Source: Pocillopora verrucosa
Taxonomy: Eukaryota > Cnidaria > Anthozoa > Scleractinia > Pocilloporidae
NCBI RefSeq assembly: GCF_036669915.1
Contig: NC_089314.1
Location: forward strand, 7,783,278 to 7,847,277
Direction of reading: 5' to 3'
DNA length: 64,000 bases
Each line of letters opens with the position of its first letter. Position 1 is the stretch's first letter. The notes beneath the pieces are model-generated. The model searched no databases. It saw only the letters and a program-made list of their open reading frames with translations, and had not been told where the DNA came from. Shown piece after piece: positions 3,685 to 26,879 of the stretch. Position numbers and translations under genes: made by a program.

Positions 3685-6600
3685 CTATAGGGCGTACACC
3701 TTAGTGCAAAGTCTTGCCCCAGAATATCTCAACTGTAGTGAGACAAGACCTGGAATATGCTCTTCCAACTGATCAACAGCCTTTGTTGTAATCTGACTGC
3801 ACATGCTCAGATCTAGGTGGGTTAAATTACGGCCATGTATTGCTAAGTCCATGACACTCTTATCAGTGATGTTGTCACATTTAGATGCATCTAGTGCTAC
3901 CAGCCTCTGCAGGTGAATTGCGACCAAGGAAACACCCATGTCAGTTACTGATGTACATCCACTGAATGTCAGCTGTTCTAGAGTGTGGAGATTTTCAGCA
4001 ACATCAGCTAATCCACTGTCTGTAATCTGTGACCAAAAGCAAAGTGAAAGTCAAGAATAGCCAATGCTGGGAGGGCTAGAACAAAATTAACCCTGAACGA
4101 TCTGAATGCTTCACAATTTAACAATTCCTCCAACTGACAATGATTTGTTTCTTTGTTATCAAGTGTATAATGTAAGTTTTGAAGTCTTCATTGCTACCTT
4201 ATAAAGCATATTCTACAGTGTGGAGGATGTGACTATTTTTGCAAGAAAAAAGTTAACAAAATTGAATATAGGTACATGTATAGCCCAAAATGAGGTTGGA
4301 GGTAGATGAGTGGCGAAACTTTAAGTCTCTCAAACTCTTCCTTTTTTCGCTTTATTATTTTTTTTTTGGGGGGGGGGGAAGGGGTTAGAAAGAAGATAGG
4401 GGAACTGACTCTTTTCCCTGCATTTTTCTGCCTGGGAGTTTTTCTCTTTTGCCATCATATCATTAAAGAAGTGAGTGATTAGAGTCCTGTGACCATAAAC
4501 TGTACCTGTGTACACATGTTTATATTCAGCGTGGTTAAGTTCCTTAGCTGACAAATGCTTCTTAAGCCTCCATCTGTGATGCATGTACAGTGACTAATGT
4601 CCAAAAGTTTCAGTTGTTCTAGGTTCTTTATTCCTTTTGGTACCTGGAGAGGAAACACAAAAATTCTGAAAGTTAATATGAATCATACATGGAGTATTAA
4701 AATATTTTCCTTGCCATGAGTAAGTATGAGAGATAAAGGGGAAGTTCTGATCCTGTTTCATGTAAATTTTTAGAAAACTTCAAACACTGTGTGTACTTTG
4801 ATCAGCATTTCATGCATCACAGATTTAAATTCGGAAACTTCAAATCTCTCTTTTTGAGTGTGAGATTTCAGGAAAAAAATTGGTATTTTCACAAAATGAA
4901 AGAAAAATAGTCATGGGTCACATATACTTCAGGAGGCAAATCACACCTCACCTCAAATTTTACACATCATGCTTGCATTTCTATAAAATCCATGCATCAC
5001 ATATTAACTCTTTACCACCCTTGCTGACTGTATGCATTGATAACAAGGGAATTTAGTGTTATCAACCGAGTTGGAAAGGTAAATTGGCCACCATAAAGAG
5101 TTTAAAGGCTGACATTTTGAGTGTTAGCCCTTTATCAATTGCTCTAACAAAGGGCTAACCCTCGTAACATCAGCCTTTAAACTCTTTACTTTGTCCAATT
5201 TACATTTTCAACTCAGTTGATAACTGTACATGTAAATTACCCTTCCACCAACACAGAACTTGCCCCCCTTTATTAACTATATGCATACCTTACTTTGTGC
5301 GGTCCCTCCTTCCTTTTTAAATTTTTCTGCATGGGAACATTTATCCTTGTTATGGCAGACATCAGCAAGGTTTTGCTCAGAGGGAACAAAGCCAATCAAA
5401 CCATTATCAGTGATGTTTATACACCAACTGAGCCGAAGTGATTGCAGTTTAATAAGTGAGCTAGTGATGGCAGACAATCCAATGTCAGTTACATGAAGAC
5501 ATGAGCTCAGATCAAGTTCTTGAAGATTGATCAGGACTGTAGAAAATCGCAACACTAACTCATCAGACAGAGTGCTGCAACCATTTAGTACAAGGACTTT
5601 TAAAGGGACATTGTGATTTGTACCCTGCATTAAATAAAAAGAAGGATAAAAAAACACGATAAAGCATTTTCAGTATTCTACCTTACTCACAGGACACAAA
5701 TTAAGGTGCAATTGTAGAGAAAAACTCTGAAATTTTGATATCAAGCACCATTTCTTAATCAAGCACCTCTTAAGTGCATGTTTGGGTGAGGTATAAGTTA
5801 TATGTAGGCTATTGTTTGCACAGTGTAAGGGGAGGTGGTTACTACTATGGGATGAATTTCTTCTTAGACATGAATGTACAACATACCACTGATGCTTAAG
5901 TGTCACACAGATTATTGGTAACTGTGTGAGATGTAGTGAAAATGCAAGGCAAGCTGGTTAAATCAAGAAAAAGCAAGTAAAGGCTTTCTAGTTAAAAAAA
6001 AACAAAACAAAACAAAAACATAAGCAAAAAAATTGTTGGGTGCATAAGCCAACAGAAAATCGAATACATTTGACCCTATGACTAATCAGAGTGCACCAAT
6101 ATTGTAATAGGTGAACAATAATCCCTTCATGACAATTAAGGCCCTGATGAGTGATTAAATGTATATGAGTAAGTTCAGTGTACCTGTGTCCAGCATAAGA
6201 ACTTTCCTAGGCCACTGTTAGACAGCTGGTAGCATGAATAGAAGTTTAGTGAGTGTAAGTTGATTAAAAGTGCGTTGACAGTCAATAATGCCCCATCTGT
6301 GAGTTGTCTGCAACTATTTAAGTCCAGCACCTTTAGACAGTGCAAGTATTTGCCAATGCAGATTAATGTGGTATTTGTAATATCCACACAAGCAAGTTTT
6401 AGGACCTCAAGTGACGTCTGGTATTTCACCAGTGATACTATGCCATTATCAGTCAAATGTTTGCAAGCTGTTAGATTTATCGCTATAAGTTTTAGTTCAG
6501 GTATCTGAGAAAATTTGAGCATCACTTCATCCGTAATATCAGATCGACTGATGTCAAGGTGTTTCAGAGATGACAACTTCTTTGCCATCTTATGCCATGT

Positions 6601-7215
6601 TGAAATTCCAATGCCCTTGCAGCCAGAAATACTAAAATCCACGACATTGGGCAACAAATCAGCTACTTTTGAAACAAACACGTCGGATACGTCTTTACAA
6701 GCGTTCAAATCCAAGACAGTCAAATGTCTCCAAACATTTGCACATTTGTCCAACCAAATCACATTCTTTGCCACGTCAAGCTGCCTACATCGGCTCAAGT
6801 CTACACGTACAAGGTTAGGACAGTATTTACTTAGTATCTCGAGTAAGTTATCATTGACGCATCTGCAGCCTTGCAGAGACACCTCTCTGAGATTTGATCC
6901 AACTTGCTTACAAACTTGAAGAATTTGAGCAGCAGTTGTCATATGCTTGAATCTCAGATGCTGGATACAGTGTCTCTGAAGGCTGTCCACTAACAGATGG
7001 GAAAACCTTTCTCGTCGTGTTCCAAGACTGACAGAAACGTTTCTCCACAAGATGGGATCCTGCGAAGCTTTAGACCACTGACCACAAACAAGAGCTGCAC
7101 ATTTTAAATCCGAAGCTGGCAGAAATCTGAAAATATACGACACGATTTCCAGCGGGAGAGCCAAAATAATCATGTTATTATTCTCTACAGCACAACTTGA
7201 TGCACTCACGGGCAT
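3685..7215 (-). CDS. F-box and leucine-rich-repeat protein (FBXL family)
   Basis: Four minus-strand exons, 7215-6184, 5624-5289, 4643-4506 and 4026-3685, are all phase 0 and join into 615 residues. Residues about 17-62 form an F-box (LPLEIVSYIFRFLPASDL and following), which binds SKP1. The rest is a run of about 14 cysteine-containing LRRs with the recurring pattern LxxLDLSxCxxITDxGL, as in FBXL/AMN1 proteins. Such proteins are substrate receptors of SCF (SKP1-CUL1-F-box) ubiquitin ligases; the substrate cannot be told from sequence. Between LRRs in exon 2 there is a lysine- and cysteine-rich insertion (about residues 428-456) that breaks the repeat rhythm. No N-terminal extension precedes the F-box, unlike FBXL4, although the total length is similar. 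I could not assign a specific human orthologue. A fold-back MITE sits in the intron between exons 2 and 3. Confidence 0.85.
5058..5224. mobile_element. fold-back MITE, copy 1
   Basis: The two ends are inverted repeats (GTTATCAACcgAGTTG at left, CAACTcAGTTGATAAC at right). The arms keep pairing inward through a 'ggctgac ... gtcagcc'-like core and a central 'gttagccctt / aagggctaac' palindrome. It lies in an intron of the F-box/LRR gene. A second copy of the same family is at about 34766-34933. No coding capacity, so it depends on a transposase from elsewhere. Confidence 0.8.
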
Positions 7216-9119
7216 GACAAGTAAAAGAATTTTGTTGAGCTAGCTTATGTTATTGAGCGAGTTGTTCGAAGACAAAAAATAAATGTGAACACAAGTAACA
7301 GTTATTTTAGGTGTTGCCCTCGGGAAAGATCAGTTCCATGCAATCCCATGAAATCGGACAGTTGTCTTCAGTAAAATTCACATAGCTGGTCTGTCTTCTA
7401 ATGAACATATCCGAAACTTAGGAAAAGCTACGCAGTTGTTTTTCTGTTTAGCATTTTACAAAATGCTAAATTTTCCGCCATGTTTTCATTAGAGCGTTTA
7501 ACTGCTGAGCATGTATCGCGGATTCGTAATTGCAGTTCTATGTGGTTCTCGCCAAAGTTCGCGGTTCTTAGAGGGTCTTAACGTGGTCAACTGTAACCAC
7601 TAAAACAGCAAACAAATTTAGCTGTTAGCGGTAAAAATTGACAAATTTTAATCGTTATTCGATAAAAGAATTTAACCGTAAAAACGTAGTCTTTTAATGG
7701 CAATGGAAATAAATTAACCGTTATTCCTAAAACGGCAAAAATTTTAACCGTCAGCCGTAAAAGCCATTACTCCATTGACACCCTCTTCCTATCATTTCAA
7801 TAAATTAGCCTTTATGTTAGCATTTTGTCATGAAAAAACTGTTCTTATCTTCTCCATTTTCAAGCATCAACCACCCTTGCTCCTTTTATTCAGATTCTTT
7901 GCACTTGTAGATAACTTTTTAGCAAATTTTCCGTTCAAGTTCAAGTTGGTCTTGCATGAAGCAAAAAGAGGGAAATTTCCATCTGTTAATGGAAATCTTT
8001 AAATATCATGTTTCTTTCAAAGCAGAAACCACCCAAAAAAAGAAGAAAGAGAATGAACACATTTGAATGCGTAGGGCTAATTGTCGACGCAATAAACAAG
8101 GATGACAAATTACTTGAAACCATAGTAGTATGTCAGAAATGACTGTGAAGGATGACGAGTACGAGAAAGAGGATTTCGTTATCAACGTATAATCAAAGAT
8201 TCACGATTGAAAAGAGACGTCAGCATTTCATGAAAGATTTTATTCAGAAATTTATCCCAAGGAAAAAAACCCACCAATGCCGTTGGCATTCTCGACGGTC
8301 TAGTACATCTGTTTAAGTTGTGACTGTCTTCTTGGAAAAAAAATAAACATGCTGAAAAAGATTACCAAACGAAAACTTTTTCTTCGCGAATTTGTAAGAA
8401 AATCCCAGTGGCAAGGTATTTATGTTGGTTTTGAAGTGAGAATTGTCTTAACGATTTTCTCGTTATCTTTTTTTTTTTTTTCAATCATTTGTCAACACTT
8501 AATTGTCGTTTTATCCATAAGTGGACCGCCAATGCGACGATGGATGAATTCCGAGCCGTTGAGAATTCGAAGTTGCTGATTGTTCACGAATGTCTTACAG
8601 TGGTTTGATTGAAATTGAAAAAAACAACTTCTCAAGAACACTGCTACTTTCCGCTGAAAACTGAGCTTTTTGAGAACGCTCTTCAATCAGGGTGAATTCG
8701 GAGACGTCAGTTTTGCGTTTTAGGATAAACAGAAAAAGAAGTTTTTACAACGAACCTCCGTGTTTACGGAAGGCGACGTTGATCCCGTGCTGATAAGTAA
8801 TATAAATTTATCCCCATGATGAACATGCGTAATCATACCGGTTTGTACCGCTATTAATCATTGAATGGTGCCTGAGTTTGATTGGGCATGCTGTGGAACA
8901 AGAGCTGATAAGATTTCATTGCGCCCAAGATCCTTAGCGTGCGTGGGTAAGGTATGACTAGAGGAAGTCTGTCAAACGAATCAAAGATTACGATGTTTTC
9001 CGCGGTGCTGAGGGAGGCTGCTACATAATTTTGTTCTCTTTCTTCAAGTAAAGCTTCTTCTATACGTAGTCGTGGGGTTGCATTCTATATTTCATCAATT
9101 TTAAAAATATCGAGACACG
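7216..9119. other. intergenic region upstream of the F-box/LRR gene
   Basis: It holds the promoter side of the F-box/LRR gene (7216 upward) and the 3' flank of channel A. The part at 7600-7770 is rich in repeated 'ttaaccgt' and 'cggtaaaa' units in both orientations and looks like a degenerate repeat element. No exon could be supported; ORFs at 7775-8002 and 8349-8579 look random. Confidence 0.45.
7600..7770. repeat. degenerate element with repeated 'aaccgt' units
   Basis: The segment repeats TTAACCGT / CGGCAAAAATTTTAACCGT-like units several times within 170 bases, with partial inverted copies. This is repetitive sequence by internal structure alone; the family is not identified. Confidence 0.4.
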
Positions 9120-12100
9120 TTAAGAGGAATCAACTCGGCCTGCAACCATGTTCTGAGCTTTGAGCCAGCGATATTGCCTAACAATGGCTGCTGTCATTCC
9201 CAAAACCACAAAAAGCACGCTGATGATGATGACCCAAGTGCTGGAATCCAGAGGTTGTTTCGTCGAAGCTTGTTCCTTTTTCTTGGCTTTTCTTGCATGC
9301 CTTCGAGTTGCCTGAAATGAAACATAAATTTCAAAACAAACACAGCTCTAGGTTCATTGTATAGGGAAAGAAGCTGATATTATACACGTGAATGTGAACC
9401 ACTATTACTTCATATAAGCAGGTGCTCAAACTGGGGATTTAGATGCTGAAATAAGCTGGTATAAAACTCGTGTATCGCTTGGACAAAAAAACTTAAAACA
9501 AAACAAGTAGACAAATAAACAAACAAACAAAGACGAAAAGCTGAAAAAAAATGCGAACAATCAATAACAGAGAACCTAAGCTTGGTCAGTCTATCCTTTG
9601 TTCATTGGTTCAATGTTTGGGTGAGTCCATATTTGGACTGATATCACCAGGCGCCGTGTTTACAGGCATCTTGCCGCTCTCCATGGTTTGTAAAAACCGC
9701 TGCGTGTGAGTATATCGGAACTAAGTGTCCACTGAGAGTAATGGCCCTGTCTCCTGTCGGTTAAGACTGCATAGACTGTTAAAACAAATAAGTAAGAGAA
9801 ACATCAACAGAAGCCTTAAATGTTATCGCCAAAAACCTTTTGGCGCAGAACAGAAAATCTTTGGTGGTACCTTCTCAATCTCATAGTCGTCAACGATTTC
9901 CCTTCTCCAACACGCAAGGAAGCTCTCATCCTCTTTGGTTCCAAAATCTCCTGTCAGACTCATACCGACTGAAAACTCGTGTGCGATGTTTTTTTTCTAT
10001 CTTGAGGTCGTTGATTCGCCTTTTCTTGATCAGGTCGGACGCCATATCATAGTCAAAGAATAGCAAGTATTCCAGCGATGAGTATTTATGACTTTCAATC
10101 AGATCGTGGAAATCCTCTAGTTCTAGAAGAGAAGTAGCATGTTTTTGTTTTTTCACGATGGATACTCTTCAGTAAAATTCAAATACAGTATACTTATTAA
10201 AAACCTGGTTTCCTGAAACCAGTCGCGAGTTGCTTGATCATGTTTCCCGCTCTTCAAGCAGTTTCTTGCTTTTATTTTAATATCTTATTGGCTCAATGTG
10301 ACATTTTACCTTTTTTTCTGAATACCCTTTGTGGTCATTGTGGTTTTGGTTTCACAACACTCAATCGAAATGCACCTTTATTTATAACTTTATTTTAGCA
10401 AACTTATCAACTCGTAACAAGAGCCGCCTGTTTTCTCCATCCAAGTTCATGAGCACTTTCATAATCTGTGGTTTATCGAAGCTACGCAGCCGTCTATTTT
10501 GAGGCCAGTCACTTTGGGCTTTCTCTGGATTTTCTTTATGAACGAAGGTCTAAGCTGTAGTCTGGAAACAAAGTCACCCGAGGTTACCTTCAAAATCTGC
10601 ACCGAAGTTGAACTCTTTTATGAGAAATGTTTCCATGCCTAGAGGAACACCAACCTGCAGTATACAAACAATACGGACTCAGCTTCTTCACAACGATTTA
10701 AAGTCATCTCGCCATCAGGAAGTCTCGCCACCGGGGCAATCTCGCCGCCATCAAGTCACCACCGGTAAACTCGCCATCAAGGTCGCTATAGTTAATTTGG
10801 TATAAGTACAAAACTTTAGATGATTCTTAAGTTTGATCTCGAGTCTCTCGAGCATACTCATAAGAATGCTATGGGCAATACTGCAAAGCCGTGCTGAAGG
10901 CTCGATAGTTTTTTCAAGATGGCGGAAGGCGAGTCAAGTGCGCGTAACGATCGAAAAGCCACCGATTTGATCAGATCAAAGATATCAAACGAACCATCGA
11001 ACGACGAGGTCTAGCCTGTAAATATTTAGAATCAAAGGAAAAGTGATCATAACTTTTTAATCGAACGAACAAACAACAAGATTGACAAAAGTTGTTATCG
11101 ATCGCATGCATTTTTTTTGTCGAAAGAACGAGAGTTTTGAAAGCTCATACTGAGATTCTGTAAACTTTTTACCATAACAACAACGAGCAACAAATTAGAG
11201 CTCAAGGGAACTTTTATTTATTAAATTAAACGTTTGATAGCAATACTTAATACAGTTACAGCAATCGGTACCGCATGAGTGTTTGGTGGCGAGGTAACAA
11301 GCCTTCATGGCGAGATCGATTACACTTTGTGGCGAGTCTTCCAGGTGGCGAGGTTATTTGAGTGTTCCTAGTGTTAACATTATGTGCGTTTAAGCCTTTT
11401 ATAGAAAAAGCATGGTGGAAAAAAAATACAGAACATCGTTCTTATTTTGTAACGGAACAGTAAATCGCAGCATAGACCCTTCATTGTGCCTTAGAATGCC
11501 TTAGAATGCATTTTATTAACAAGGCGTTGTATTCAAATTTAAATTTGACCTGATCGTGTTGTCATTAAACGCTGAAACGTCCACCCACTAAACGCGTTAA
11601 AGAACTCAGAACATCGAGTATTAGCAAGAGGCTCAAATAGTAGTAGCAAGAACCCCCGTGATGAACCTTCCAGTCGCAACAGATTTGATTTGAAACAATT
11701 CTTAATGTTAACGAAGTGTTCCTGAAAACTGGACTGCCTCATGTACGACACGTTTTTCACTCACTGGGCAACGCAACCATGGTTGGCTCCATTCGTGCAG
11801 AACTATTTAATCAGCACTACGTTTTCTCAATTATTGCTTTATTCGGTATTCTTGCCACTCGAATTAAGCTATTATTACATTCATACATACCCTCTTCCAC
11901 TAGGGTTACTGAGGGGCTCGTAGAAGTACCAGACATGAAGGAATGATACTTCAAGTCTCTATTTTCACTCATTTTATCAGCTATAGATAGAATTTTTTAC
12001 CTACCCTTTTTCCAAGAAGATTTAGGTCATAGCCTATTTCGCCTGCAGTTAGGTCAGCGGTCAGCCTAGCTGAAAACACAGTTGTCAACACTGTTCCTTC

Positions 12101-14748
12101 TAACATCCACAGGATCGCAAACGTACGGGCAAGGGAGGACTGAGGTGCTTTGTCACCGTATCTTTGATCGTTGAAAAGAATGGACTGAATTAAACTTGAA
12201 TGCCTACTATTTTTTGTTTATTCATGAGAAGTAAGTGTAATGTTTAGGTCTGCACTCGTACTATAAACTTTCTTAAACAATAAACCTATATCTCCCTCTG
12301 AAAGATTAAAATCAGGCTTTCTGTAGAATACTAGACTAATGGTCATTTATACTGCTTTTAAATAGCTCATGTACACCATTGACTATGACTTTGGTCAAAA
12401 ATTTAAAAAAAGCTTACCCAACGGTTGTCATGGTAACAAAGGCCCACCAAACCCCTTGTCCGATTCCACGAAAAGAACTCGACGGGAACTGGGCTGAATT
12501 GGTCCTGTGCTCCTATATGGGGAGAGAGGAGGTGATAAGTTGCAGGGCATGAGTAAAACAAGTGCACGAGGGAAAAAAAGCCAATGCAAAAGTGTAGCAT
12601 CCCTCGAAATAAGAAAGTGACCGTCACACAATATAAAATTGCGGCTTAGTTGCAAGGCCTGGATGCAGCTAAACCTTTATATTTAAAAGAAGCTCATTTG
12701 CAATAAAGGAAGTGTGACTTGACTGGTCTGAAAGACTAGAGGACAATAAAATAACTTGAAGTGAGGCTACTGTTTGTTTCGATTACAGTATTGAAGGCGT
12801 AATGACATAAAACCGCATGTACATGTAAATATGCGAAACATACTTCTGCTATTCCTCTACAACAAAAGATATTTCTACTTCAGAAAATAAATTGTTCAAG
12901 ATCCTAAATTGCCAAATTGCCCTGTTGGCAACAGTTGTATAATTTTGGCGGTTAATACCCATCGCAAAACATGGCATAGTCCTCATATCACGAACCGAAT
13001 ATTTTTTTCAGTCAGCACAATTCACGTTTAATAAACGGCGTAGTGTTATTGATTTTGTTTTGAGACGTTTTATTTGCATGAGCAATGGTACAAAAAATTC
13101 TGATATCTTTCTAAAAGAGTATTTTTAAAAATCTAAAACTATATTTGGTTGGGTGACACAACGCATAGCTAAATGAACGATGGTAATCATGATTACGAAA
13201 TAAAGTGTGTACCATCCCGTTTTGTTTTATTATGATAAGTCTTCACCATCATTCGGAAATGCAAAATGATCAGTGAAATTAACCAGGAAGTTACTGCTTT
13301 ACAAAGATCGCTAAATGTTGTCTAACTTTTCGGGAAATATTCATTACTTTTTGAACTCGAAAAATTACTTATGAAAAATTGATTCATAATGATTATGATG
13401 CAAATGACAGGCACACATCTGTTGTTATTCAAATTTGCATTGAAGCTTGAATTATTTCCCCCACAGGACTCAATATCAAGAATTATTTCCCCCACAGGAC
13501 TCAATATCAAGATTTTTTATTACAAAAATTATTTTTTTTCTGTCATGCCATGACATAGATAATGGTTAATGGTTCTGAAAGCATTATTTTTATCCTCATC
13601 AATTCGGTGACTCTAGGAAAGAAATCGCCCTGGTTTGTTTTTGAATTGGTAATTTTAATGAAACATATTTTTTCAACTCAAGTAGGAAAGTTTTAGCAAC
13701 AGCCTGGGCAAAAGGCTGGTTAAAAAATTAATAAACAAAAATTTGAATTCGATGGATGTAGTGAAGCTCATTTTTCAACGATTGCAACATGCGTACCTCA
13801 TATGTTAATTTTGTAATTCATAGTAAACTCAACCCTTTTTTTTTCAAACTACTGTTTGCTTTCGCGGGATGAGAGAAGTGTGAGTCAGTTCCAATTTTAT
13901 TCATGGAGTTTCTACTTATTGCAAAATTACTTGCAATAAGTAGAAATGTAAACGGGAAAAGTTTAGAGTAACGTTAACGGGAAAAGGGAAAAAGTGATGA
14001 CAATGGTCATCACTTTCCTCATTTTCTGGTAACTATTATACCATTCCATAAGTTTTCCATTAGCTATGTTAGATCGACAAAATAAAAAAGAAAAGTAAAC
14101 CAAACAAAACTTGGAATTAAAACGAATAAAAAGAGAGAAAAAACGACGGGAGGAGACCATAAATAACAAATTTCGAGTTTGCTTCAACGTACGTACCAAA
14201 GCCCATATGATTATTCCTGCAAGTAAGGCGTGTAAAAAGGAAATTAGCACCAGCGCCCACACGTTCTTCAGAAGGTACAGAAATCTATTTGAAAATGGAT
14301 CCGATCCGTGGCCAAATTTTAAAACCGCAGGTCCCGGTGAATGAAACAGTGCCACAAACCTCCTCTGAAGCTGCTCTGTTTCTCCTTTGTTAGAGAAAAT
14401 TGGAAAATGGATGACAGGATTTTTGTCGTGATTTCGTCGAATGAGTATTTCCATCTCACAAGAGCTAGTAATGTTTATTTTCTCGTCATAAATTCGCAGT
14501 CTTGGACAGCAAGCATTTAGTGCAGTATTCATATAACGAGAGAGGTCTCCTTCAAGGCTCTTGCTGGAAGAGTTGTAATGAGTAAATGGGTGAAAATCTT
14601 GCCAGTGCAGCCTGACGGTTTCAAAAGATGGACAGTGAAATGTGCTGCCATTTTTCGTGTTAGGCAGACCGGACAATTCGGCTCTTGTTCCACACACATA
14701 AACTTTTCCAAACCAAATCAAAATGCAGATTTTGCTGAACATGTCCAA
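9120..14748 (-). CDS. channel A: GluR0-like receptor with a K+-selective pore (one frameshift)
   Basis: Six minus-strand exons: 14748-14197, 12512-12418, 12161-12005, 10654-10588, 10122-9871, 9311-9120; about 437 residues if one base in exon 5 is discounted. Order: signal peptide (1 to about 20), extracellular segment, M1 (about 162-184), re-entrant pore (WWAFVTMTTVGYGDKAP, filter 214-219), M2 (about 224-250), a segment opening LGKRVGVP like the second lobe of a solute-binding protein or glutamate-receptor S2, then C-terminal helix M4 (about 400-420) and a basic tail. The pore is that of a potassium channel, not an animal glutamate receptor, so a ligand-gated K+ channel of the plasma membrane is inferred. 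The ligand is unknown. In exon 5 a run of eight A (9989-9996 on the plus strand as T) is one base too long; with seven, exons 5 and 6 join in phase. This may be assembly error or a disabling mutation. Confidence 0.75.
10200..10390. mobile_element. probable non-autonomous repeat in channel A intron 4
   Basis: The stretch reading on the minus strand 'ttcgattgagtgttgtgaaacc' and its flanks resembles a short interspersed repeat that I recall as frequent in coral genomes. That is pattern memory, not a search. It sits in the intron between exons 4 and 5 of channel A. Confidence 0.3.
10705..11365. mobile_element. element with GGCGAG/CTCGCC subterminal repeats
   Basis: The left end (10709-10785) carries at least four CTCGCC units and the right end (11284-11355) at least four GGCGAG units in inverse orientation, about 480 bases apart. 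Such subterminal inverted arrays are typical of non-autonomous DNA transposons. The interior contains a 30-codon open exon-like stretch starting at 10919. The element lies in intron 3 of channel A. Confidence 0.6.
10919..11008 (+). other. exon-like ORF start inside the GGCGAG element
   Basis: AAGATGGCGG gives a good translation start context. Thirty codons (starting MAEGESSARNDRKATDL) run to GAG followed by GT, a possible splice donor. It may be a captured first exon or the start of the element's own ancestral gene. No downstream exon was found within the element, so it is not called as a gene. Confidence 0.3.
13449..13510. repeat. 31-bp perfect tandem duplication
   Basis: A 31-base unit beginning GAATTATTTCCCCCACAGG occurs twice back to back, 13449-13479 and 13480-13510, without a mismatch. 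It lies in intron 1 of channel A and is a recent local duplication. Confidence 0.9.
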
Positions 14749-15599
14749 GTTAACTAAAACTTCGGTTCTGAAATGTGTGATGACACATACCCTTCACCAA
14801 TTTAAATGAAAATATGGTCGTATTGTCTCCCTGTTTTCGCTGGGAAATATTAAAACAACCACCTGCAGGTTTTTAAACTAATTCGTTATCGTTCCAAGAA
14901 TTCATGTATAATATCATATTACCCTTTTGTCTTGAAATGGCGGAATAAATGAAACGCTAAGTTTCATCATATTGATGTGTTGCGTGTTATGGAGGAGAAT
15001 GTGAGAAATTTTGCTCTAGCGGTTCAGTAAGATGCGGTCTCGTAAAATGTTGCTAAGAAGCGAAATCACAAGTCATTCCATTGCCACAATGAACAGAGCT
15101 TTCCTGCAAAGCTCAAGGCCAGAAGTGTCACCGATGAGTAACATGCAGATTGTTCAAGTCTTGGAGCCCCACATCGTTGGGATCAAACTGATGAGAATGA
15201 AAAACATCAACCCCGCAAGGAAAGACGATGATCAATATAAAGATTAGGTGGCGGGATGCGTGAGGAGGAAGGTGAAAAGATTTCTCGATTATCTCGGACA
15301 ATAGAATGATGAAGAACAAGATCAAAACGATGACTCCGAGGGGACAAAATATGATTTTGAAAGGAGCAATTAATGCAAGCTGAAAGAGTTTCAGCCTTTC
15401 GACGTGAAAGCCATCATTATTTAAGCATCAGCAAGCTTCGTGGTTGTGACGTTAGTTGTTGGGACTGCATTTGATTTGATTAGATCCCGTAGACAAAAAA
15501 TCCTTATAAAAGGTATTTCGTAGATTAAAAGATGGTGATGGGAAGTGTGATAGGTCTTTTCAGGTCACGATGAATCTATTTTATTTAAGTATAAACTAA

Positions 15600-15710
15600 A
15601 GCAGTAAATAGTGTTGAAGGCGGACTCTGATTGGCTACTCAAACTCTGAATATCCCCTGCTATTTATCTCCGAGGAACGCGCACTGGATTTGCGCCTCCA
15701 AAAAATGTAA
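15600..15710. repeat. probable interspersed repeat
   Basis: The sequence 'ggactctgattggctactc' and following bases resemble a dispersed repeat seen in several places in coral DNA; a partial 'ctctgattgg' echo occurs near 37385 and 56391. The assignment is from recall and local echoes only. Confidence 0.3.
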
Positions 15711-16353
15711 TGTTTACAGGAATAAATAAGTCAAAACCCTTCTTTTTGTGCTATATTATCTCACTGTTTCAGTCAATACTAAAACAAAAATTTACCACGC
15801 CTCTTCACGACTAGGTAAATATGCACCACTAACAATCACTTGTTTGCTGAATGGTTGTAAAAAAATCACTGACAGGGCCGTGGTCAAAATGAAGCGAAAT
15901 CTTTGTTATGATTGCTTACCTGCCAGGGACCCGTTTCTCGAAAGTCCCAGTAACGAAACATGCCCTTAAAACTATTCTGTTTTCATTGAAAGTGGGGGTT
16001 TTCAAAAGTTTTGAAAATTATACAATGATGCTATCAGCTATAGAAACAAAATGGACTAGATAGGATGCCAGAATCTGCTTTTCTATCCCTTAAATTTGTA
16101 TTCCGCTCTATTCTATGCCATTTTTATTTTATTTATTGTTTCGGGCCTGTTAAGTTACTGGAACTTTCGAGAGACGGGGCCCCTGAGCAGAAAATAGAAA
16201 ATAGAAATACGGTGAAAACATATTGCGAGTGTCAGTCGATTTTTAACAAGTCCGAAGGGAGGGCCATGATTCTGTCTCTCATTTAGTTTCAGGGATTGTT
16301 TTTAAGTCTTGAAAATCGCTGTAGTGATCTTCATGAATCAAAGATCCTAATGA

Positions 16354-16563
16354 AAGTTTTTAAGAGCCAGATCATTTGAAATTGGTGTCCAAGAGCAAAA
16401 GAGTTTGAAGTTTGATATCATGAGAGAGTTAAGAGATCGTGAGAATAAAATTGGTGTCCAAGAGCAAAAGAGTTTGAAGTTTGATATCATGAGAGAGTTA
16501 AGAGATCGTGAGAATAAAACCGCTGTCGATTATATGAATCAAATTATAGATAATAAGGTATGA
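16354..16563 (+). repeat. in-frame 69-bp tandem duplication in an open frame
   Basis: A 69-base unit occurs twice, 16381-16449 and 16450-16518. It is exactly 23 codons (IGVQEQKSLKFDIMRELRD and four more residues), and the frame stays open from 16354 to the stop at 16563, passing a good donor (AAG/GTATGA at 16558-16563). The opening IGV recalls the S2 start of the two flanking channel genes, but the similarity is too short to call homology. It may be a degenerate exon of a third paralogue. Confidence 0.5.
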
Positions 16564-18469
16564 GTGTACAGATTATAAGAATTATATTTTAAACTGAGTT
16601 ATATACACACCTGGCTGCGCCTCGTTTGCAACGAGTTTATTTGTAACAGATTTTGAGGTCATCTGAAATCTCTTAGTGAACAGACACATGCACGCATCTA
16701 ATTGTGAACTAAACATCTTATGCAGTAATTTGAGAAGTATTGCGTAGGGAGACTGAAGGTAACATCAGCTAAGCCTCTAAATTTTCAGGCTGAAAAAAAA
16801 GATCAATAAGTATATTTTTTCAAAAAATGCAAACGATAATCATAAAATTCGCGCATTTTCCTTCCAATGCGCTTTGAAGATTCGAGAGCATAAGCCACGA
16901 AAAAAGGTAGTCTACTTTGCTGGCGGTCTGCCGCAGAAAGGCCGAGTAGAGACCAATTCGGTCTGTAATCATACGAGTGATAAACACTGAAAACAGGCGG
17001 CGTAGCTGATCCGACGATACACGGTAATACAATATGCCACACCGTTTTTTGACAATTTGCAAGAATCAATCAACGGAATAATATTTTAACTTTCCTGCGA
17101 TATCTCGCTGATATATATCATTCTAGCAATTATTGTTACGGCGATTAAGTGAAGATTGAGGGATTCGTCATTATCATATACTGTTTTGCTGAAAGATCGC
17201 CACAGCTTTTATTATGTAGCATTCAGGCGAAGGGAAATAAGGGTACTTCTCAAAGAAATATATAAGGGTACTTCTAATAATATAAGTGAGAGTACTTCTC
17301 ACACTTTAAGCCTTACGGCAGCACAGTACCGACTTAAAATTGCTTTTACGTTTTGAGGAACACTGTACTTCCCGCAAAGGCTGAGGGCGTTCTACTGACG
17401 TTTACAGTATCAAAATTAATTGTGAGAAAACCTTGATCGTTTGCAGCTCTTCGCTGATAGAAACGATTAAATCGAAAGTATTACTATTATGTAACCACTT
17501 TATAAAGAATGCATTCACTTTGTCTCGGTCAATTTGTAACGTCCATTTTCCGTGGACGTATTTATCACGCTCCCAACACAAGGGATGAAACAGATTTGTT
17601 TTTTTGTGATTCAGACGCTGAATCATTTCAGCGTCGTTTTGAAATAAAAGTCATTCGTAACGTCAAAAATCTGGGGTTTTCTCCCCCAAAAATTATTTGA
17701 ACCAATTTAACCCGCTATTTTATATCGATCACCTATAGTTTGAGCCGTATATGAATAAAGAAAATGATTGTCCGTGCTATTATTAATCTCAGCGTCATCT
17801 ATACTAGCTTGCCTCCATCAGATAATTGGCTGAATTGTTAAATTTTAAGCTAATACAATTTTTATATTCGTAAACGGTTGATAAACTGTCTAATCGTTTT
17901 AATTGGGCATGTTCGTGCGAAGTGAGCAATCAGTTTCATCAAAAAATCACCAATGACGGCTATTGTTTGAAATTTCCACTTACAATTTTGATCGTGGGAA
18001 AACCATAAGCCTCTTCCGCTGAAAGGAGAGACTGACTAAAGGAAACGATTGCATCAATAGTGTTCCTCCATTGTGTTAAAATTTGGCAACCAGTACATTA
18101 AGAAGACAAAGTTACAATCATTATATGAAAAAAGACACTTCAGTAACGGTCCACTTAACTAAAAGATTTGTCCTTACACCTAAAACAAAGAAAAAATGCA
18201 CTCATTTGTATAAGTACACTTCGTAATTTCTGTTTTCCGTGAGCTGAAAGCTCCAAAAGAAAACGCTGAAGTAGTAATTGCTATCAGTAACATCCTTATA
18301 AAGTCTTCCTCAGCGAAAGGATTTGATCATTCAATGCTCTTCGAGGCCACGGATATGCCAGTAATCTTCAAGTAATACGAGAGACAAAGGAACATGGAAA
18401 AGCCGTTCAGCTGTCAATTGAATCCAGTAACTTTATAGGGATGGATGAAAGTCAACTCAAATGCTAATC

Positions 18470-19543
18470 ATGAATTCAAGTGCTTCTTCTTCCCAAGAGA
18501 TACCAATTGAATGTAAAAGCCTATATTTTGAAACGCAAACTTCATAATGTACCTCCCGAAGTTAATGTAGCCTTAGTTTCTTCCCTGGTTTTGAACTGCG
18601 TTACATTTCCCTTCACAGTTGTATTAAATCTGGTGGTGATAGTCGCCGTGAAAACCAGGCAGCGGCTAAGAACAAACTCTAATGTCGTTATTGCATGTTT
18701 GGAAACCACGGATCTGTTAGTTGGAGTTTTCGTGCAACCTTTTTACTTTCCGGTGGTAATGTCAGTGATATCAACCCTTGAGGGAGATTTATCTAAAACG
18801 ACTTGCTTGATCAGGTTAACTTTTAGCAATGGGCGGGCTAGGAATGTTCTGCGGGGCTTCACTATTTCAATTAGTTTTGATGACCGTCGAGCGCCTCTTT
18901 GCCATTTTTCTTCCATATAGCCATAATGTTTGTGTCACCGAGGGACGGATAGTGGCTGCTTCCATCGTCGCCTGGGTCGTGAATCTCCTCTTCACGATTA
19001 TTTATTTGGTCTTCAAAGTTAGATTCCTCTTCCCGGTTCTTGCGATTTTTTGGCTATCCTTAGCGATTATAATTGTTGGCCAGTTTATACTCTACAGGGA
19101 AGCTCGGTGACACAAAACGCAAATGCGCGCCCAGCAGGTTGCAGTCAAGATGGAGTCCAGACAAAAGTTTGAGAAAGAAAAGAAAGCCTTGAAATTGACA
19201 ACTTATGTTGTTTTAACGATGCTGTTATTTTACTTTCCCATAACTGTTATTTGGCTCGTTCTTTCCAAGGTTTGAATATTGATTGAATATTACATATATC
19301 ATTTTATTCATCGGAGGGTTTATTCCAATATTAAATTCGGTTGCCAATCCAATAATTTATGCTGCGAGATTAAGACAGTTTCGAGTAGCTTTCCTCGAAA
19401 TTATTTTAAGAAAAAACTTCACAGAGGCGCAACAGATAGAAATGCGATTATTTTGTATCCGCAAGCGTGGTGAGAGGGCTTCCACCAGGATTAAAGCGAG
19501 AAAGAAGCGAAGAGTGGAAGATATAAACATTTCAACGATCTGA
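18470..19543 (+). pseudogene. class A (rhodopsin-like) GPCR pseudogene, intronless
   Basis: Fragments in different frames together make one seven-helix receptor. TM1-TM2 lie near 18570-18780 (with NxxV and a LETTDLL TM2 motif), TM3 ends in TVERLFAIF (an ERL form of the DRY motif), TM6 reads TYVVLTMLLFYFPITVIWLV, and TM7 reads NSVANPIIY, the NPxxY motif. Damage: a stop at 18545-18547 needing a shift before TM1; an extra T in TTTT at 18821-18824 before TM3; an in-frame TGA at 19108-19110 in the third intracellular loop; and a stop plus shift at 19273 between TM6 and TM7. Four lesions in 1.07 kb are too many for assembly error alone, so a dead gene is likely. Single-exon orphan receptors of this kind are abundant in cnidarians; the ligand is unknown. 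Confidence 0.8.
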
Positions 19544-21818
19544 TAAATGTCCAAGCAGAATTATATTAATGTTATTTTAAAATTAAAACCGGATGGGCAA
19601 AGAAACTTAAGTTATAATGTGCAATATTAACAATTGTATAGTGAAATTGGAAATGTTGTTAATGGGTAGAATTGTACCAAAAATAGTTTGAGAAGTAGTT
19701 GAAATCTTCAACAATGCAACAAGGATGTAGGTGTCAGCGATTAAAATATTACTTTTCACTTTAACACTTTTGCCTTGCACCTGCCTCCGTCAGTCTGGCG
19801 TTACTAATTAACTAGGCAGGCGAATGCGCTTTTTCAATAAGTGCAATGACCACGACATTTTCTTGGTAAGTTAAAAAAGAAAACTTTAACATCCTCTCCT
19901 TAGGGCCCTACTTCCCATTCTAATCACCAATTATGAAAACGGCGCCAAATATTCTGAAGTCTCTTTATCCTTGCCCTGTGAAGCAACGGCAATGATGATA
20001 GCTGCACACTAAAGTAACCCGTTAAAGCATACCGTACTTCGATACCGTTCTTATATTAGGAACTTTTACTCACCATCTGGGTTTAGTTTCGGGTTACTTA
20101 CTGTTTAACCTCACTGTTACCTAACTTTTATTCACAAATCTTCACGCAATTTTAGAGGGCTTGCTGAAAAACCACCGAAAATATTTATTAAATTTTGCTT
20201 TTAATTAGTAAAACCTATCATGTAAATCTATTCATATTAGTATTCACATAGAGAAGTTGACCGAATGAGATCCTCTACAATAGATCTCTGATGAAGGAAA
20301 TTCTTTAAAGTTTTAGATATCAAAATTTATTATGAGAAAACCTTACGTCAAAAGACACGATTAAGTGTTACGACCTAGTCATTTGAGCTGTTTTAGTTTT
20401 TCTAAAACAGTTCATAATGTAATGTTTTTAGTATATGATTAGCAGCTTCCGAGTTCTTTTGGATAAAGTTGCAGTGTAAACATTGTTCTTCTCAGTAGGG
20501 ATATCAATGATAACAAATCCTTGTGAACGAATTCTTCCATGAATGAATGGAAGAATGAACGAATAAATGAATAAATGGAGAGGAAACGTGGAGGCATGCT
20601 AACTGGTTAAGTCAACTTATTTCAGCCTGCTAAGCGACTAAGCACATACAAAACATATAGCACACAGTTTGCCAACACATCTGTCATTTATGGTTTCATG
20701 CAATATGTTCAATTCATTGAAATGATTTCTTTAGTTGCGAAGGAATTAATAGATGGGGAGCCAGTAATCTTCTGACTTATTTTTTAACCTGTTCCTATTC
20801 TATAGAAATGGAAAACTTTGAGCGGAGGAAGATGTTTTTTTTTTCCTTTTTAAATTACAACAGCTACAACTCATTACACGTTTCAGAAAAAAAAACTTTT
20901 GCCTGCTGTTATAGGCATTTAATCTTCAAAAGCTTTTCTCATGCGACGCGAATGCCGTCCGAATTGAAACTTTTTGTGGGGAAAGCATTATAAAAATTAA
21001 TTTTTTTGTTAAAACCTTGTTTTGCTGAAAAAAGGTGAAGGCGGAATTGTCAAAAATCCAGTGCATTACATATTAATGACCACTAAAGGGAAGTCGCGTA
21101 AACGTCAAAGGAGATGGCATAAAATTACATGTGGGAAATATCAACATAAAATAACACAGTATACTTGCGTCATGATACCAGCCATGGCAATAACTTGATG
21201 GAAAGGGAGTAATCAATATTAGTTTGTCTGCAGGTGTTAGTTGCTCACCTTTGCATCATCATAATTTTGAAAATAGTAAAATACACTTTTTCATGAATTT
21301 AAGCAGCCTAAAAAGAATATTTCATATTCCATGAATGTAGTGTTCGCATCTGGGTCTCCAGGGAGCTTCAAGAATACCTTCATGTCTACCTGTTCTCTAT
21401 GGCATCCATTGTGAACGCTTCACAGAGAGACGCTAATGAAGACCTCCTTTTTATCCAGTAATATCCGCGTCATTGGTGTCGATTTCCATACAAATGTGCC
21501 ATACATAACTTTTTAAATTAATTATCGTCAAGAGGAGAGTTGAAACCTTTATCGGCGAGTTTTCATAAAGACAAAGAAAATACATCTCAAAAATTATATT
21601 TGATTAATTAATGTCATTCAGCCGTGACTCAGGATGTTTTTCTCTTCAGCAGCAGAAGCCCGTTTTCTTTTAACTTGCTAATGAAAAGTCTAAAAATATT
21701 AATGAGTAAAAACATCTGGGACTTTTTGTCACACAAAGAACACTAATGAATATTTGTTTTAAAACACTTCGAATACATCGTCGAGGTATCGAAGCAAAAA
21801 GGATCCTTCACTCACAAA
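19544..21818. other. intergenic region upstream of channel B
   Basis: No gene is visible. A GAAT-type simple repeat lies at about 20530-20580 and an inverted pair 'gagctgttttag...ctaaaacagttc' at 20385-20414. The last 100 bases before 21819 should hold the channel B 5' UTR. The ORF at 20808-20993 looks random. Confidence 0.4.
20530..20580. repeat. (GAAT)n-like simple repeat
   Basis: The tract repeats GAATGAATG, GAATGAAC and AATAAATGAATAAATG units over about 50 bases, an imperfect tetranucleotide repeat in intergenic DNA. Confidence 0.7.
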
Positions 21819-24800
21819 ATGAAAACTGTTGCGTCTCTTCTTGCAATAATTGGAGTCTTACTCACCCGTTGGACTGACATCCGAGGTGACGAAAGTATGT
21901 GCTATAAGTTCTGCTGTGAGGATAATTCAAACATAAATTTAACAAACTGTTGCAGTGAGGCAACTTCGCATCTGTTACCTCCACGGTTTTACAGCTTTAC
22001 GTGCGTGAGGCAGCTTCTTGAGCTCTGCGCTTCTTCTGTAAACGATTCTAAGATTGATGTGGCAAAGCAGAATTTACAACAAAATTGCAGAATCAATTGT
22101 ACTGAAAATGTCCTTACTACCTCTCAGTCAACAAACATTTCGGTTAACTGGAAGGAGCCAAAGTTTTGGCCGGAGGATAAAGAATTACCTAGTGCTTTCA
22201 AACACAGTTGGGAAAAACGCGGGGAATTTATTTTGCGGATGATGTCGCATTTGTGCGTGAACACGGCCAAAGCGTCCTTTAACTGTTTGATCACGTATAA
22301 TTACCCTGTCTTTACTGGAGAGAAAAACTTCGAGAAAAAAACATTTGTGTGTGGTTTAAACGCGCCACCAGCTTACTTAGTTATGAAAGAAGGAAACAGT
22401 GGTATCGTAATGGTGGTTTCCTATTCTGCTGCCCATCTCTGGCCAATAATTTGTATCTGTGTCACTTGGACGTTGATATCAGGAGTTATCATATGGCTGT
22501 TGGTAAGTTGATCAGTCTCCCTCTCGATATACAATGGGTATTGATCTGGTACTTGTTTTTACCTATTTCAAATCATGTTCTATTGTCTCAAGTGAGGCCC
22601 GATATTACTGTATGATAAATCAAACTATCGCCGATCCTCAGCGTACTCAAGGATGGTTTGGTAAGAAAATGGCGTAGTACATTAAGGACTCACTGAACAT
22701 ATGCTACCCGTTTGGTCATGACATTTGCATCCAATCCAACCATCTTCCCTCGGCGATCTCCCTTATCGAGTGCTCAACAACGTTTGTTCCGTTATTCCTT
22801 CGCCATATATTTTCAAGAAATTCCAATTCTACGAGGTTTTTGAAGAAAACGACAAAAGTTTTAAGTTTGTAAAACATGTTTCGACAGAAACTTCTGTCAT
22901 CTTCAGTTGATTACTATACAAAGCGTTGGAAGTTGAATTTATAATAAATAGAGTGATGCTTCCAAAGGGTCTTTGGAAACGTCCTTACATGGTGTAATTG
23001 TTGATTCAAAGAGGGTTGTTCTCTTTGAATATGACTAGCCTCTTTTATCTTGAGTTGAAAACCGGAGAGGCGTGATCCAAAACATGGAGGCTATCCGGCT
23101 GAACACAAACCGCGACAATGTTCAGAATCTTGCAGATGTTTGAAAATGTGAGTGCTCTCTAACACGCGTGGAAAGATGCCGACGGGCTCCGTTTACGTGT
23201 GGTTTATAAGTTTGCATGTGTTGGCTGTAATGCCTGTTACCTCCGCGAAACGTGCCATGTAAATCTCAAACTATCCTTTTAATTATCACACTTTCATGCT
23301 TTACCTCCTTCTTGTTGTCACCATTTATCATAATTAGCATTTTTCTATCTATTATAAATTCAACTTCCAGTGACAGGGCCTCTCACATTTTCAAACATCA
23401 GCGAGATTCTGAACATTGTCGCGCTTTGAGTTCAGCAGATAGCTCCTATGTTTTAGATCACGCCTTAAAAGACTTAAAAGTTTTGTCGCTTTCTTTAAGT
23501 TCTTGACTAGCCTGCTAATATCAAGACCCTTCAGAAACATTTTTCTCTACGAGGTTTGCATTCAAAGCTAGCTTTCTCGACAAAGAATCTTTCAATTCAT
23601 CAGAGCTTACTTTTCGGTTTCAGGATCGACGAAAAAACTCTGAGGAGTTTCCACGGTCCTTCTGGGAAGGCGTTCGCGAAGGAACGTGGTGGGCAGTGGT
23701 TACCATGACTACTGTTGGGTTTGTGGAATCACCTACTCTAGATAATTCTATCATGCAAATTTATTCACTCAAGCGGCAAAAATTGTAGGATGACTAGTTG
23801 CTTATGATTACTTGATTTATCTTATTTTGGGCGTGTGAAGACCAGATAACTAGAATATTTTCTTACGGATCATTCTGACCGAATTTTAGAGAACTGCTGT
23901 AATGCATACCTAGAGAAACTGTACAAAAGTTAGCTCTACTATCTAAACAACTGTATTTTTTTCCTTTCTTTTCAAGATATGGAGACAAGTCCCCCAAGTC
24001 TTCACTAGCTCGTATTTATGCTGCAGCTTGGATGATAATCGGTATGATCATTCTCTCCATATTCGCAGCTGAAGTTTCCTCCATATTGACAGCAAGACAG
24101 ACAAAACCTCACCATTCTCTCCTGAATCGATCTGTAATTATATCTTTAAATCGTTATTACTTTTTGTCTCAATTGTCCTCGTGTAAATGACATGTATGTT
24201 TAATTTTGCATAATTTTGGATCTCAAGCATGAAAGGTACTGAATAATGCTTGCAAGATGTTACAGGATATTATGTTGAACTGTTCAAATCGCACAAAAGG
24301 AAAAAAAATTTAAATATTAGCGAAAGTCTCACGATTAATCCCCTGTAAATTGCGACGTTTTTTGTGCATGGTATTAGGCTTTATCGGGCGATGAAGTCTT
24401 GAATGTAATGTTTATTTTCAGCAATAGCGACTTGCGCGATATAATCCTCGTTGTTTCAGTTGGTCAGGTTGGAGAAGCATCAAAACTTTTTTTCGGTTCT
24501 AGTTTTCAAAGACGGGCTTCATATTTAGTAAATAAACCCCTCAGGTGGCTGGTAAATCGACTGATAATGCCTGCCGCTGCGAAATTTTCCGAAAAATGAA
24601 TATTTGGCCGAGAAGCGAAGCTCAGGTCAAGAGACAAAACCAAATATGACCACTGACAGAAGTCGCTGTTCGACAAACAAGCTTTATAAATTACGCAAAG
24701 GTAAAACTTAAAAAACAATAAAAGAACTCATAATTATAACAAAGCACCAAGCCGACACACCAGCACGCCTGAACAGGTGTTATTTATATTAGAACTCTTT

Positions 24801-26872
24801 TGCTAATTTCCGTATCCCGCTTTGACAGAAAATTTTGTTGACTTTTTTTTGTACTGTCCGAAGCAGCATTTCAAATCAGCTTTTTTAATGTCACTACCAC
24901 CGGACTCTACATAACGAGTTCGTTTTTTCCTCCATATAAAGTAATAATGATGAAAAAGTGAAATTCTTGAAGTGGCTTTTCTCCGCTGACTTTCGACGCA
25001 AATAATCGGAGGACATATGTCGACGTGAACAGGGGTTGTTGCTTGATAATTGTGATGCTGAAAATATTTGGCGCAATTCGATCAAGAGTTTTAATTCCCC
25101 AAGGTCTCCCCAAGGTCAGTCGGCCTATAACCCAAACATGTTCACTGAGAGAATTCTTAAGGGTATGCACTATAAAGGCGATTTAATAGACCCATAGTGG
25201 CAACAACAGTGGCAGCAATAGGAGGCTATAAAAGGCAATACAAAGAAGAAGGAAGACGCATAAGAATCTTCGTACCTATCGCTAGCGCGGGCTTGTTTCG
25301 AAGTTAATTAGTTTCCCTGTTAACGACGTAACAACCTCAACTTTTCTGCCCTTATGCTTTCTTACAGATCGGAGTCCCTAATGGCAGCAAGCAGTACTTT
25401 CAGGAGGAGTTCAGAGGCGCAAAAATCATAGGTAATTTAAACGGCCCTTATTGCAGCGAAGGATCACGATCCTGACCGAAAGCTACACCTTATTTTCATT
25501 TTATTTCTGTTTGCTGTTAACAACGCAGGAAGAATAAGCCTTCGACCTCAACTGAGAAAAATTTGGGATATGCCAGCCTTTAAACCACAGATTTGATTGA
25601 ATTAGGGAGGGAAACCTGTTTCACCAAGTTCTTAATGTAAATTCCATTTTTGGTTTGTAATCTAGTACATCTCATACAATGAAGTAATTTCTCATTTTAA
25701 GAATAAATGAGAAGATTTAACTGAATTGGCTTAGTTTTCTCAAAATGTGTGAGAAACAGCCTTTAGAAACGAGGGTAGGGTTGAGGCCGTCAAGTTGTTT
25801 GAAAACTATATAGTTTTATATTAGAGTTCTGTCAACACCTCCTCAGAGCCATTGTCCTCTAGATCCATGTGAAGACAGAAATGATATCGAAGAAATTTAT
25901 GTTTGATATTCAAAACCGTTTTCTTTTTTGTTTCTACTTTTAAATTTTTCTAGAGATGAATTCCTCGCAAGATCTTGATACTCACTTGGCGAATGGAAAT
26001 AAGCAACGAATTGTGTATTACAGCTGCAAGGCAGGCGAGGGTGTGGATCGTGACAAGCAGATTGTGAAGGCTCTGAAGCACCACATAATTGGAACTGAAA
26101 TGAAGGTGAATACCACATGCCTCTACCTTGCAAATGAAACATTTCCAGTTCAGTCCCTTGTGCAGTGTGTTAAGAATAATGTGAAGAAACACGTTGAAGA
26201 TTGTGATCCATTTCAAGCTGAAAAAGCCAGTGATTCGTTAAAGTACTGCGATATTAAGATGGATGATTATGGAAAGATAAAAGACTTTCAAAAGGACGAC
26301 ACGGCTGCCATCATAATTTATGCCTCTGTGGGACTAGTAGCAGTGATTTTTGTTGCTGGCAGTGCATGGGATTTGACAAAGACTCGTGATCAATGGAAAA
26401 AGGAAGAAGGTACAGGTATGTTGTAGACGAGTGATATGTCAGAAATAAAAATAGAAGTAAAGAATAATTCAAATAAAGATCAAAGACTTAGGTTCGATAA
26501 AATTATAAAGAGGTGGTCATTAGCTAATTTCTTGCTGATTTCTTACTCAGATACGAGATCTAATACCTTTGGGGACTCGTTCGTGTTTACACGTGGAACA
26601 GAAAGAGGTATATGCATGCTTATCTTAAGGATCAAGATCCCTACTGAGATCATACCATGCTTGACAGACCATATCCTTGTAGGCCAAATAAGGAAATGCG
26701 CAACCTTTCCCTCCTCTACTGGCAAGTACATTTACTGTGCGCCTAATCAACCTTTCTCCCTCTGATTTCCCTTATAGTTAGTGGAAAATCAAGCGGTAGC
26801 ATCGGCTTGGAAACATTCGAAGACCCGATAGAGATATGTGTAACAAGGGGAGAGGAATACAAAGACCGCTGA
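21819..26872 (+). CDS. channel B: intact GluR0-like receptor with a K+-selective pore
   Basis: Seven exons, 21819-22502, 23624-23718, 23977-24133, 25368-25431, 25954-26415, 26551-26607 and 26778-26872, join without a frame break into 537 residues; AATAAA follows at 26874. Order: signal peptide (1 to about 24), Cys-rich N-glycosylated extracellular segment, M1 (about 207-228, ending GVIIWLL), linker RRKNSEEFP, pore WWAVVTMTTVGYGDKSP (filter 258-263), M2 (about 268-292), S2-like segment opening IGVPNGS (313), M4 (about 450-472), charged tail. The linker and pore closely follow bacterial GluR0-type channels, in which a solute-binding domain is split by a K+ pore. A ligand-gated K+ channel at the plasma membrane is inferred; the ligand is unknown because the glutamate-binding residues are not recognisable. 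Exons 2 and 3 match channel A in length and phase. An alternative last exon may lie at 27107-27192. Confidence 0.85.
22850..23510. mobile_element. Penelope-like or related GIY-YIG retroelement remnants, inverted pair
   Basis: Two fragments of one element lie in opposite directions in intron 1 of channel B. The plus-strand ORF 23252-23506 contains SHIFKHQRDSEHCRAL, and the minus strand at about 23153-23040 reads a near-identical SHIFKHLQDSEHCRGL with later EQPSLNQQL. Histidine/cysteine-containing C-termini of this kind are typical of retroelement proteins with a GIY-YIG endonuclease end. The minus-strand copy continues into a 'gacagaagtttctgtc' hairpin at about 22884-22900. Both copies are broken by stops, so they are dead. 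Confidence 0.55.
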
Positions 26873-26873
26873 A

Positions 26874-26879
26874 AATAAA
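26874..26879 (+). promoter_or_regulatory. poly(A) signal of channel B
   Basis: AATAAA begins two bases after the TGA stop codon of channel B. It would give a very short 3' UTR. A second AATAAA near 27253 follows the possible alternative last exon. Confidence 0.4.

Follow-up and report, generated by a model that had tools for sequence, protein, structure and literature searches.

Two divergent genes of Pocillopora verrucosa predicted to encode ligand-gated K+ channel subunits with a GluR0-type pore and a last membrane segment M4

Does the plan of the bacterial glutamate receptor GluR0, with a K+ filter in its pore, also occur in an animal genome? The question is raised by a 64,000-nucleotide stretch from the scleractinian cnidarian Pocillopora verrucosa (assembly GCF_036669915.1, contig NC_089314.1, positions 7,783,278 to 7,847,277 of the forward strand; hereafter the window, in whose coordinates we give all positions). 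It contains two divergent paralogs, gene A (14742-9120, minus strand) and gene B (21819-26872, plus strand). The original prediction, made from the letters of the window, took the pair for channels that combine a GluR0-type plan with a true K+ filter and a last helix, M4, and supposed that their ligand may not be glutamate. We consider it probable that A and B are subunits of ligand-gated K+ channels of the pore lineage of GluR0 and the ionotropic glutamate receptors (iGluRs), with an inverted pore.

Both proteins show the same order of parts: a hydrophobic N-terminus, a hydrophilic part (S1), the membrane segment M1, a re-entrant TMTTVGYGDK, the membrane segment M2, the block VGVP (A) or IGVP (B), a second hydrophilic part (S2) and a last hydrophobic segment. 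A hydropathy scan places this last segment, the predicted M4, after S2 in both proteins and reveals no voltage-sensor segments in either. The filter, the helix order, the GVP block after M2 and the phase-matched exons of the original prediction are all seen in both genes. Its true K+ filter stands as a motif, while the K+ selectivity of the channels is what this motif would lead one to expect.

Gene A consists of six exons. Exon 1 (14197-14742) encodes the hydrophobic, signal-like N-terminus, the S1-like extracellular part and M1; exon 2 (12418-12512) the loop between M1 and the pore segment (P), and the pore helix up to TMTTVG; exon 3 (12005-12161) YGDK and M2; exon 4 (10588-10654) the VGVP block and the start of S2; exon 5 (9871-10122) S2; and exon 6 (9120-9311) M4 and the C-terminus. 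The five-exon model of gene B (21819-26426) has an unbroken frame of 490 residues. Here exon 1 (21819-22502) carries a signal-like N-terminus, a Cys-rich S1-like part with 12 Cys, and M1, exon 2 (23624-23718) the loop DRRKNSEEF and the pore helix to TMTTVG, exon 3 (23977-24133) YGDK and M2, exon 4 (25368-25431) the IGVP block and the start of S2, and exon 5 (25954-26426) S2 and M4. Position 26426 is a read-through end. A GTATGT donor follows position 26415, a possible exon 6 (26778-26872), predicted from sequence, would add a C-terminal tail ending EEYKDR, and an AATAAA lies at 26874. The ending 25954-26415 plus 26778-26872, which gives 518 residues, appears likelier than the read-through, and the sixth exon explains the end coordinate 26872 of the original prediction.

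All nine introns of the six-exon model of A and the five-exon model of B are of the GT-AG type, and four of them are common to both genes, at the same positions and with the phases 0, 2, 0 and 1. Exon 2 measures 95 nucleotides and exon 3 157 nucleotides in both genes, and introns 2 have 256 and 258 nucleotides. In A and B alike a phase-2 intron cuts TMTTVGYGDK, with the break in the codon for the first Gly of TTVGYGDK. The proteins are 42% identical over M1, pore, M2 and the start of S2, and BLASTP gives 140 bits (E ~1e-40). The shared introns and phases, the equal exon lengths and the BLASTP score confirm that the likeness of A and B exceeds chance. The phase-consistent exons of the original prediction hold for the four shared phases, but it did not mention that exon 5 of gene A is without a single frame, as there is a one-base shift at a run of eight A near 9988-9997. 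This shift may be an assembly error or a sign of decay.

The gene structures also bear on the question whether the genes came from a bacterium, by recent transfer or by contamination. In our searches, which covered bacterial and archaeal genomes, plasmids, phages and viral contigs, the closest relatives are bacterial. Nevertheless, the GT-AG introns, of which A has five and shares four with B, the presence of M4, the identity of 42% between the paralogs and neighbours that match 7tm_1, PAN and F-box-LRR make such an origin extremely unlikely.

Is the pore that of a receptor or that of an ordinary K+ channel? In Pfam, Lig_chan is matched by B with 42.0 bits and by the first 334 residues of A with 32.8 bits (cut-off 30.8), and Ion_trans_2 is matched by both; none of eight ordinary K+ channels passes the Lig_chan cut-off, the best reaching 15.2 bits. 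The Lig_chan match is not specific to eukaryotes since bacterial GluR0s match too. In a search of bacterial and archaeal genomes at least 549 relatives were confirmed and the best 80 kept. Among these 80, the E..xN motif of the M1-P loop is found in 76, GYGDK in 73 and W[MIT] of M2 in all. The 40 that were scanned with Pfam without exception contain SBP_bac_3, Lig_chan and Ion_trans_2 (E up to 0.001), including the four proteins which lack the loop motif (L055, L058, L061 and L065). With a GluR0 profile built from 79 of the 80, B scores 135.9 and A 124.2 bits, whereas the 20 ordinary K+ channels scored reach at most 73.2. A two-class score calculated without the filter columns is +56 for both A and B, +5 to +209 for the 80 GluR0s and -38 to -152 for 18 K+ channels. 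The agreement of the Lig_chan match, the profile, the classifier and the architecture of the best 80 supports a GluR0 kind rather than a Kv kind for the M1-pore-M2 block, as was first proposed.

The alternative is an ordinary K+ channel pore, of a voltage-gated (Kv) channel or one with two transmembrane segments, which lies in the membrane in the normal orientation and is linked with unrelated segments, be they extracellular or luminal. It can draw on PDB, where the top matches for the pores of A and B are KvAP, KCNQ and Kv. In a profile search of PDB, the only chains of Synechocystis GluR0 among the best 60 of 682 matches are binding domains, so the GluR0 pore seems to be absent from this collection. 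For B, NCBIfam gives K+-channel models and no others, far under the cut-off; an Rfam scan returned no matches. Best pore matches to Kv channels without receptor-like neighbours, which would speak for an ordinary pore, are not what the bacterial and archaeal genomes gave. Together with the GluR0 profile, the classifier, the Lig_chan scores and the missing voltage sensor, the GluR0-like best 80, with SBP_bac_3 in every scanned member, lead us to regard an ordinary K+ pore as rather improbable.

A rough maximum-likelihood tree of 54 rows also separates the receptors, together with A and B, from the K+ channels (95/85). GluA2, the sole animal iGluR in the tree, has a branch of 3.37 without a resolved place and does not pair with A and B. 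This concerns a further explanation, namely that A and B are ordinary animal iGluR-type cation channels in which the GYG motif has arisen anew. M4 and the extracellular plan are indeed as in animal iGluRs, but the M1-P-M2 block fits the K+-type GluR0 as a whole, beyond the filter, and, considering also the position of GluA2 (one iGluR, on a long branch), we judge a new GYG motif in an ordinary iGluR to be very unlikely.

Several observations weigh against a GluR0-type receptor, and we gather them here and below for the extracellular parts. Similarity to B was the criterion by which the GluR0 set was assembled, a choice that favours GluR0 kinship; we therefore give the bit scores less weight than the domain architecture of the best hits and the Lig_chan result. 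In the 54-row tree the bootstrap had not settled and some K+-channel branches, as well as GluA2, are long. In a reduced tree of 43 rows the split of receptors plus A and B has 92/90 and is not starred, and the approximately unbiased (AU) test on this set does not reject A and B with the K+ channels (p 0.229). The phylogeny of the M1-pore-M2 block, done with GluR0s, viral-contig receptors, GluA2 and K+ channels, puts A and B on the receptor side, but the AU test keeps the K+-channel side. Finally, three proteins from IMG/VR viral contigs (L085:2120-3130, L086:2318-3139 and L087:2105-3139) combine SBP_bac_3 with a K+ pore in the GluR0 plan. None of the three passes the Lig_chan cut-off, and with -40 to -49 they fall on the K+-channel side of the classifier; neither test is therefore general. 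In the 54-row tree the three cluster together at 100/98. Two alignment queries had found the same seven viral contigs, of which these three were scanned with Pfam, while a single-protein query and a query with exon 5 of gene B found no relatives there.

Relatives are also present on plasmids. Among the plasmid matches listed (for B 30 of 75, for A 30 of 77), one substrate-binding-domain protein of Rhizobium tumorigenes has the lowest E value with B and with A (8e-11 and 7e-8). This receptor (L001:1006-2127) has the GluR0 plan, but its filter reads TQASTGHRGP and not GYG, and the match therefore rests on the flanks. A Roseibium plasmid protein annotated as substrate-binding (L002:1051-2127) apparently has the GluR0 plan without a GYG filter as well. 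Five phage records match the first part of A; their features bear the names ion transport protein, ion transporter or hypothetical protein, and one of the records has no annotation.

Do the extracellular parts form the lobes of a receptor? S2 opens with LL....GVP.G in A and B, at the place and in the register of a receptor S2. With the SBP-bearing receptor of contig L086, which was picked after the fact for a match reaching far into S2, S2 of A scores 53 (reached in 1 of 2000 shuffles) and S2 of B 43 (9 of 2000), both in the same register; if about 85 candidates are corrected for, the value for A becomes borderline and that for B loses significance, while the register still agrees. In a global profile alignment the shuffles reached the observed value for S2 in 0 of 150 (A) and 10 of 150 (B) cases and for S1 in 76 of 150 (A) and 21 of 150 (B). 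When S2 was shuffled, the score with the GluR0 profile was reached in 19 of 300 (B) and 22 of 300 (A) trials, and when S1 was shuffled in 87 of 300 (B) and 143 of 300 (A). The corresponding numbers for family-mean pairwise scores are 13 of 200 for S2 of A, 39 of 200 for S2 of B, 15 of 200 for S1 of A and 20 of 200 for S1 of B. With hhalign, neither S1 alone nor S2 alone rose above shuffles. It is tempting, but unproved, to align VRLHW..HPFT...LEGDLSRYMNTAL in S1 of gene A with the pattern LrVG...PPFV...G.si.lw..ia.

On the unfavourable side, S1 is thus not significantly above shuffles in any of these four tests, and S2 is marginal or nil in the hhalign, shuffled-profile and family-mean tests. 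The family profiles agree with the original prediction for Lig_chan and Ion_trans_2, but neither A nor B has a listed match to SBP_bac_3 or Lig_chan-Glu_bd with an E value of 10 or less, a range in which the HMMER filters drop most matches above 0.1. AlphaFold gave a mean predicted local distance difference test (pLDDT) of 61.9 for exon 1 of gene A with bacterial rows, S1 being mostly below 70, and of 33.4 for exon 5 of gene B alone. As to the proposed clamshell, these exon-wise predictions are too weak either way; S2 has some support from sequence and S1 has none. The lack of detectable receptor homology in S1 suits an ordinary K+ pore with unrelated segments, whereas the register match of S2 in both paralogs speaks against it. 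Returning to the receptor reading, we regard S2 as moderately supported as a receptor lobe, and we infer the fold of S1 and a clamshell of S1 and S2.

The orientation of the pore is suggested by the N-glycosylation sequons. Gene B has four of them in S1 and five in S2, and these nine compare with a shuffled mean of 3.3 and are reached in 0.2% of shuffles; S1 of gene A has three (shuffled mean 1.6, reached in 19%). No sequons occur in the M1-P and P-M2 loops of A or B. The placement in gene B fits lobes on the outside and a putatively inverted pore. For GluR0, PhoA fusions indicate such an arrangement (PMC13099474).

Which ligand could be bound? Glutamate receptors use an Arg for the carboxylate of glutamate and an Asp of S2 for ligand binding. 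At the aligned place the Arg was not found in A or B, and the Asp is matched in A only, both on a weak alignment; for these reasons glutamate does not seem a safe guess. The non-glutamate ligand of the original prediction fits the missing Arg but shares the weakness of the alignment behind it.

We suggest that the channels work in the following steps. A and B would contribute subunits to channels that carry a K+ filter, are gated from outside the cell and belong to the GluR0/iGluR pore lineage. Four subunits would surround a pore that is inverted relative to Kv channels, with the filter end facing the cytosol. The divergent two-part extracellular domain, with S1 before M1 and S2 between M2 and M4, would bind a ligand. 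The ligand-bound domain would then close and pull at the end of M2 via the M2-S2 linker, and the gate would open. An outward K+ current through the open channel could finally hyperpolarise the cell. Gating by lobe closure is established for GluR0 and the iGluRs and is used here as an analogy.

Is the locus still functional? A scan of the window with stops written as X revealed a decayed third copy, relic C (15000-15496, plus strand), with in-frame stops. It comprises a Cys-rich S1 start (15000-15116; score 73, 0 of 1000 shuffles) and an S2-M4 part (15146-15496; score 126 against 49 for the best background tile), of which the M4 part scores 101 (0 of 2000 shuffles). Only 29 bases separate the two parts, hence relic C is without a pore. 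The locus is therefore a small cluster of three copies, in which gene B is intact, gene A frame-shifted and C a relic. Between relic C and gene B lies a gene for a rhodopsin-type G-protein-coupled receptor (18474-19543, plus strand); it changes frame near 18810-18830, like gene A, and is a pseudogene or contains an assembly error. The sequence of this receptor gene, too, suggests a cnidarian origin of the window, in line with the original prediction. One might argue that the cluster is decaying, A and C being pseudogenes which B may follow. The frame shift in A, the stops in C and the frame change in the receptor gene between C and B would be explained in this way. On the other hand, gene B is open across five or six exons with consensus splice sites, gene A has, apart from its shift, an open frame and conserved sites, and the shift lies at a homopolymer run, where assembly errors are common. 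We therefore consider a decaying cluster unlikely, although less so than any of the other alternatives discussed here.

Elsewhere in the window we note a 69-base unit in two identical copies arranged head to tail (16379-16519), an ABC transporter gene that by eye is MRP-like (47646-53289, plus strand) and an F-box/leucine-rich-repeat gene (3688-7239, minus strand).

What would such channels mean? Among animal receptors of the glutamate type, those best known are excitatory cation channels, and a fast ligand-gated K+ channel of the plan of A and B would be directly inhibitory. We tentatively propose, with slightly more doubt than confidence, that A and B belong to a metazoan lineage of GluR0-type receptors, probably a cnidarian one, that has not been described before and whose members are K+-selective and inhibitory and have orphan ligands other than glutamate. 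On this view the receptor plan with the K+ filter survived in, or returned to, animals other than one rotifer, and it was locally duplicated. If this is true, such channels would stand in nature between GluR0 of bacteria and the iGluRs of animals, and they would be relevant to the question whether the eukaryote line lost the K+ filter a single time or whether some branches retained it. In 2010 the combination of K+ filter and receptor was stated to be known only in bacteria (PMC2950845). By titles and abstract openings, we found no report of a cnidarian K+-filter receptor in the open-access literature; in the main text of PMC6307864, neither "potassium" nor "selectivity filter" occurs.

How do A and B compare with the known systems? 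According to PMC2950845 and PMC13099474, they resemble GluR0 of Synechocystis and the "Group 1" prokaryotic receptors in the E..xN loop, in the pattern WW..VTMTTVGYGDK.P....R..A..WM and in the K+ filter. As in GluR0, the models of A and B contain no amino-terminal domain, S1 of gene A having about 130 residues. They differ from GluR0 by the added M4, the spliced genes, lobes below Pfam detection, the carboxylate Arg that was not found and the Cys-rich stretch in B. With animal iGluRs and the chemosensory ionotropic receptors they share the order S1-M1-P-M2-S2-M4 and the expected inverted pore, but A and B carry a K+ filter where those receptors have the Q/R/N site, their models lack an amino-terminal domain, and their lobes are not recognisable. 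The nearest counterpart on paper is AvGluR1 of the rotifer Adineta vaga, described in PMC12226733, PMC11479355 and PMC12332018 as an animal receptor with four transmembrane segments and a K+ filter that is nearer to the bacterial receptors. A and B, compared with this description, are alike in being animal proteins with four transmembrane segments and a K+-type filter; AvGluR1 is responsive to glutamate as well as to hydrophobic amino acids, while A and B have lobes that are not recognisable. Because of M4 the two proteins are not GluR0s, and because there is no recognisable binding domain they are not ordinary iGluRs. From their sequences we file A and B as a putative divergent animal variant of the K+-filtered channels of glutamate-receptor type.

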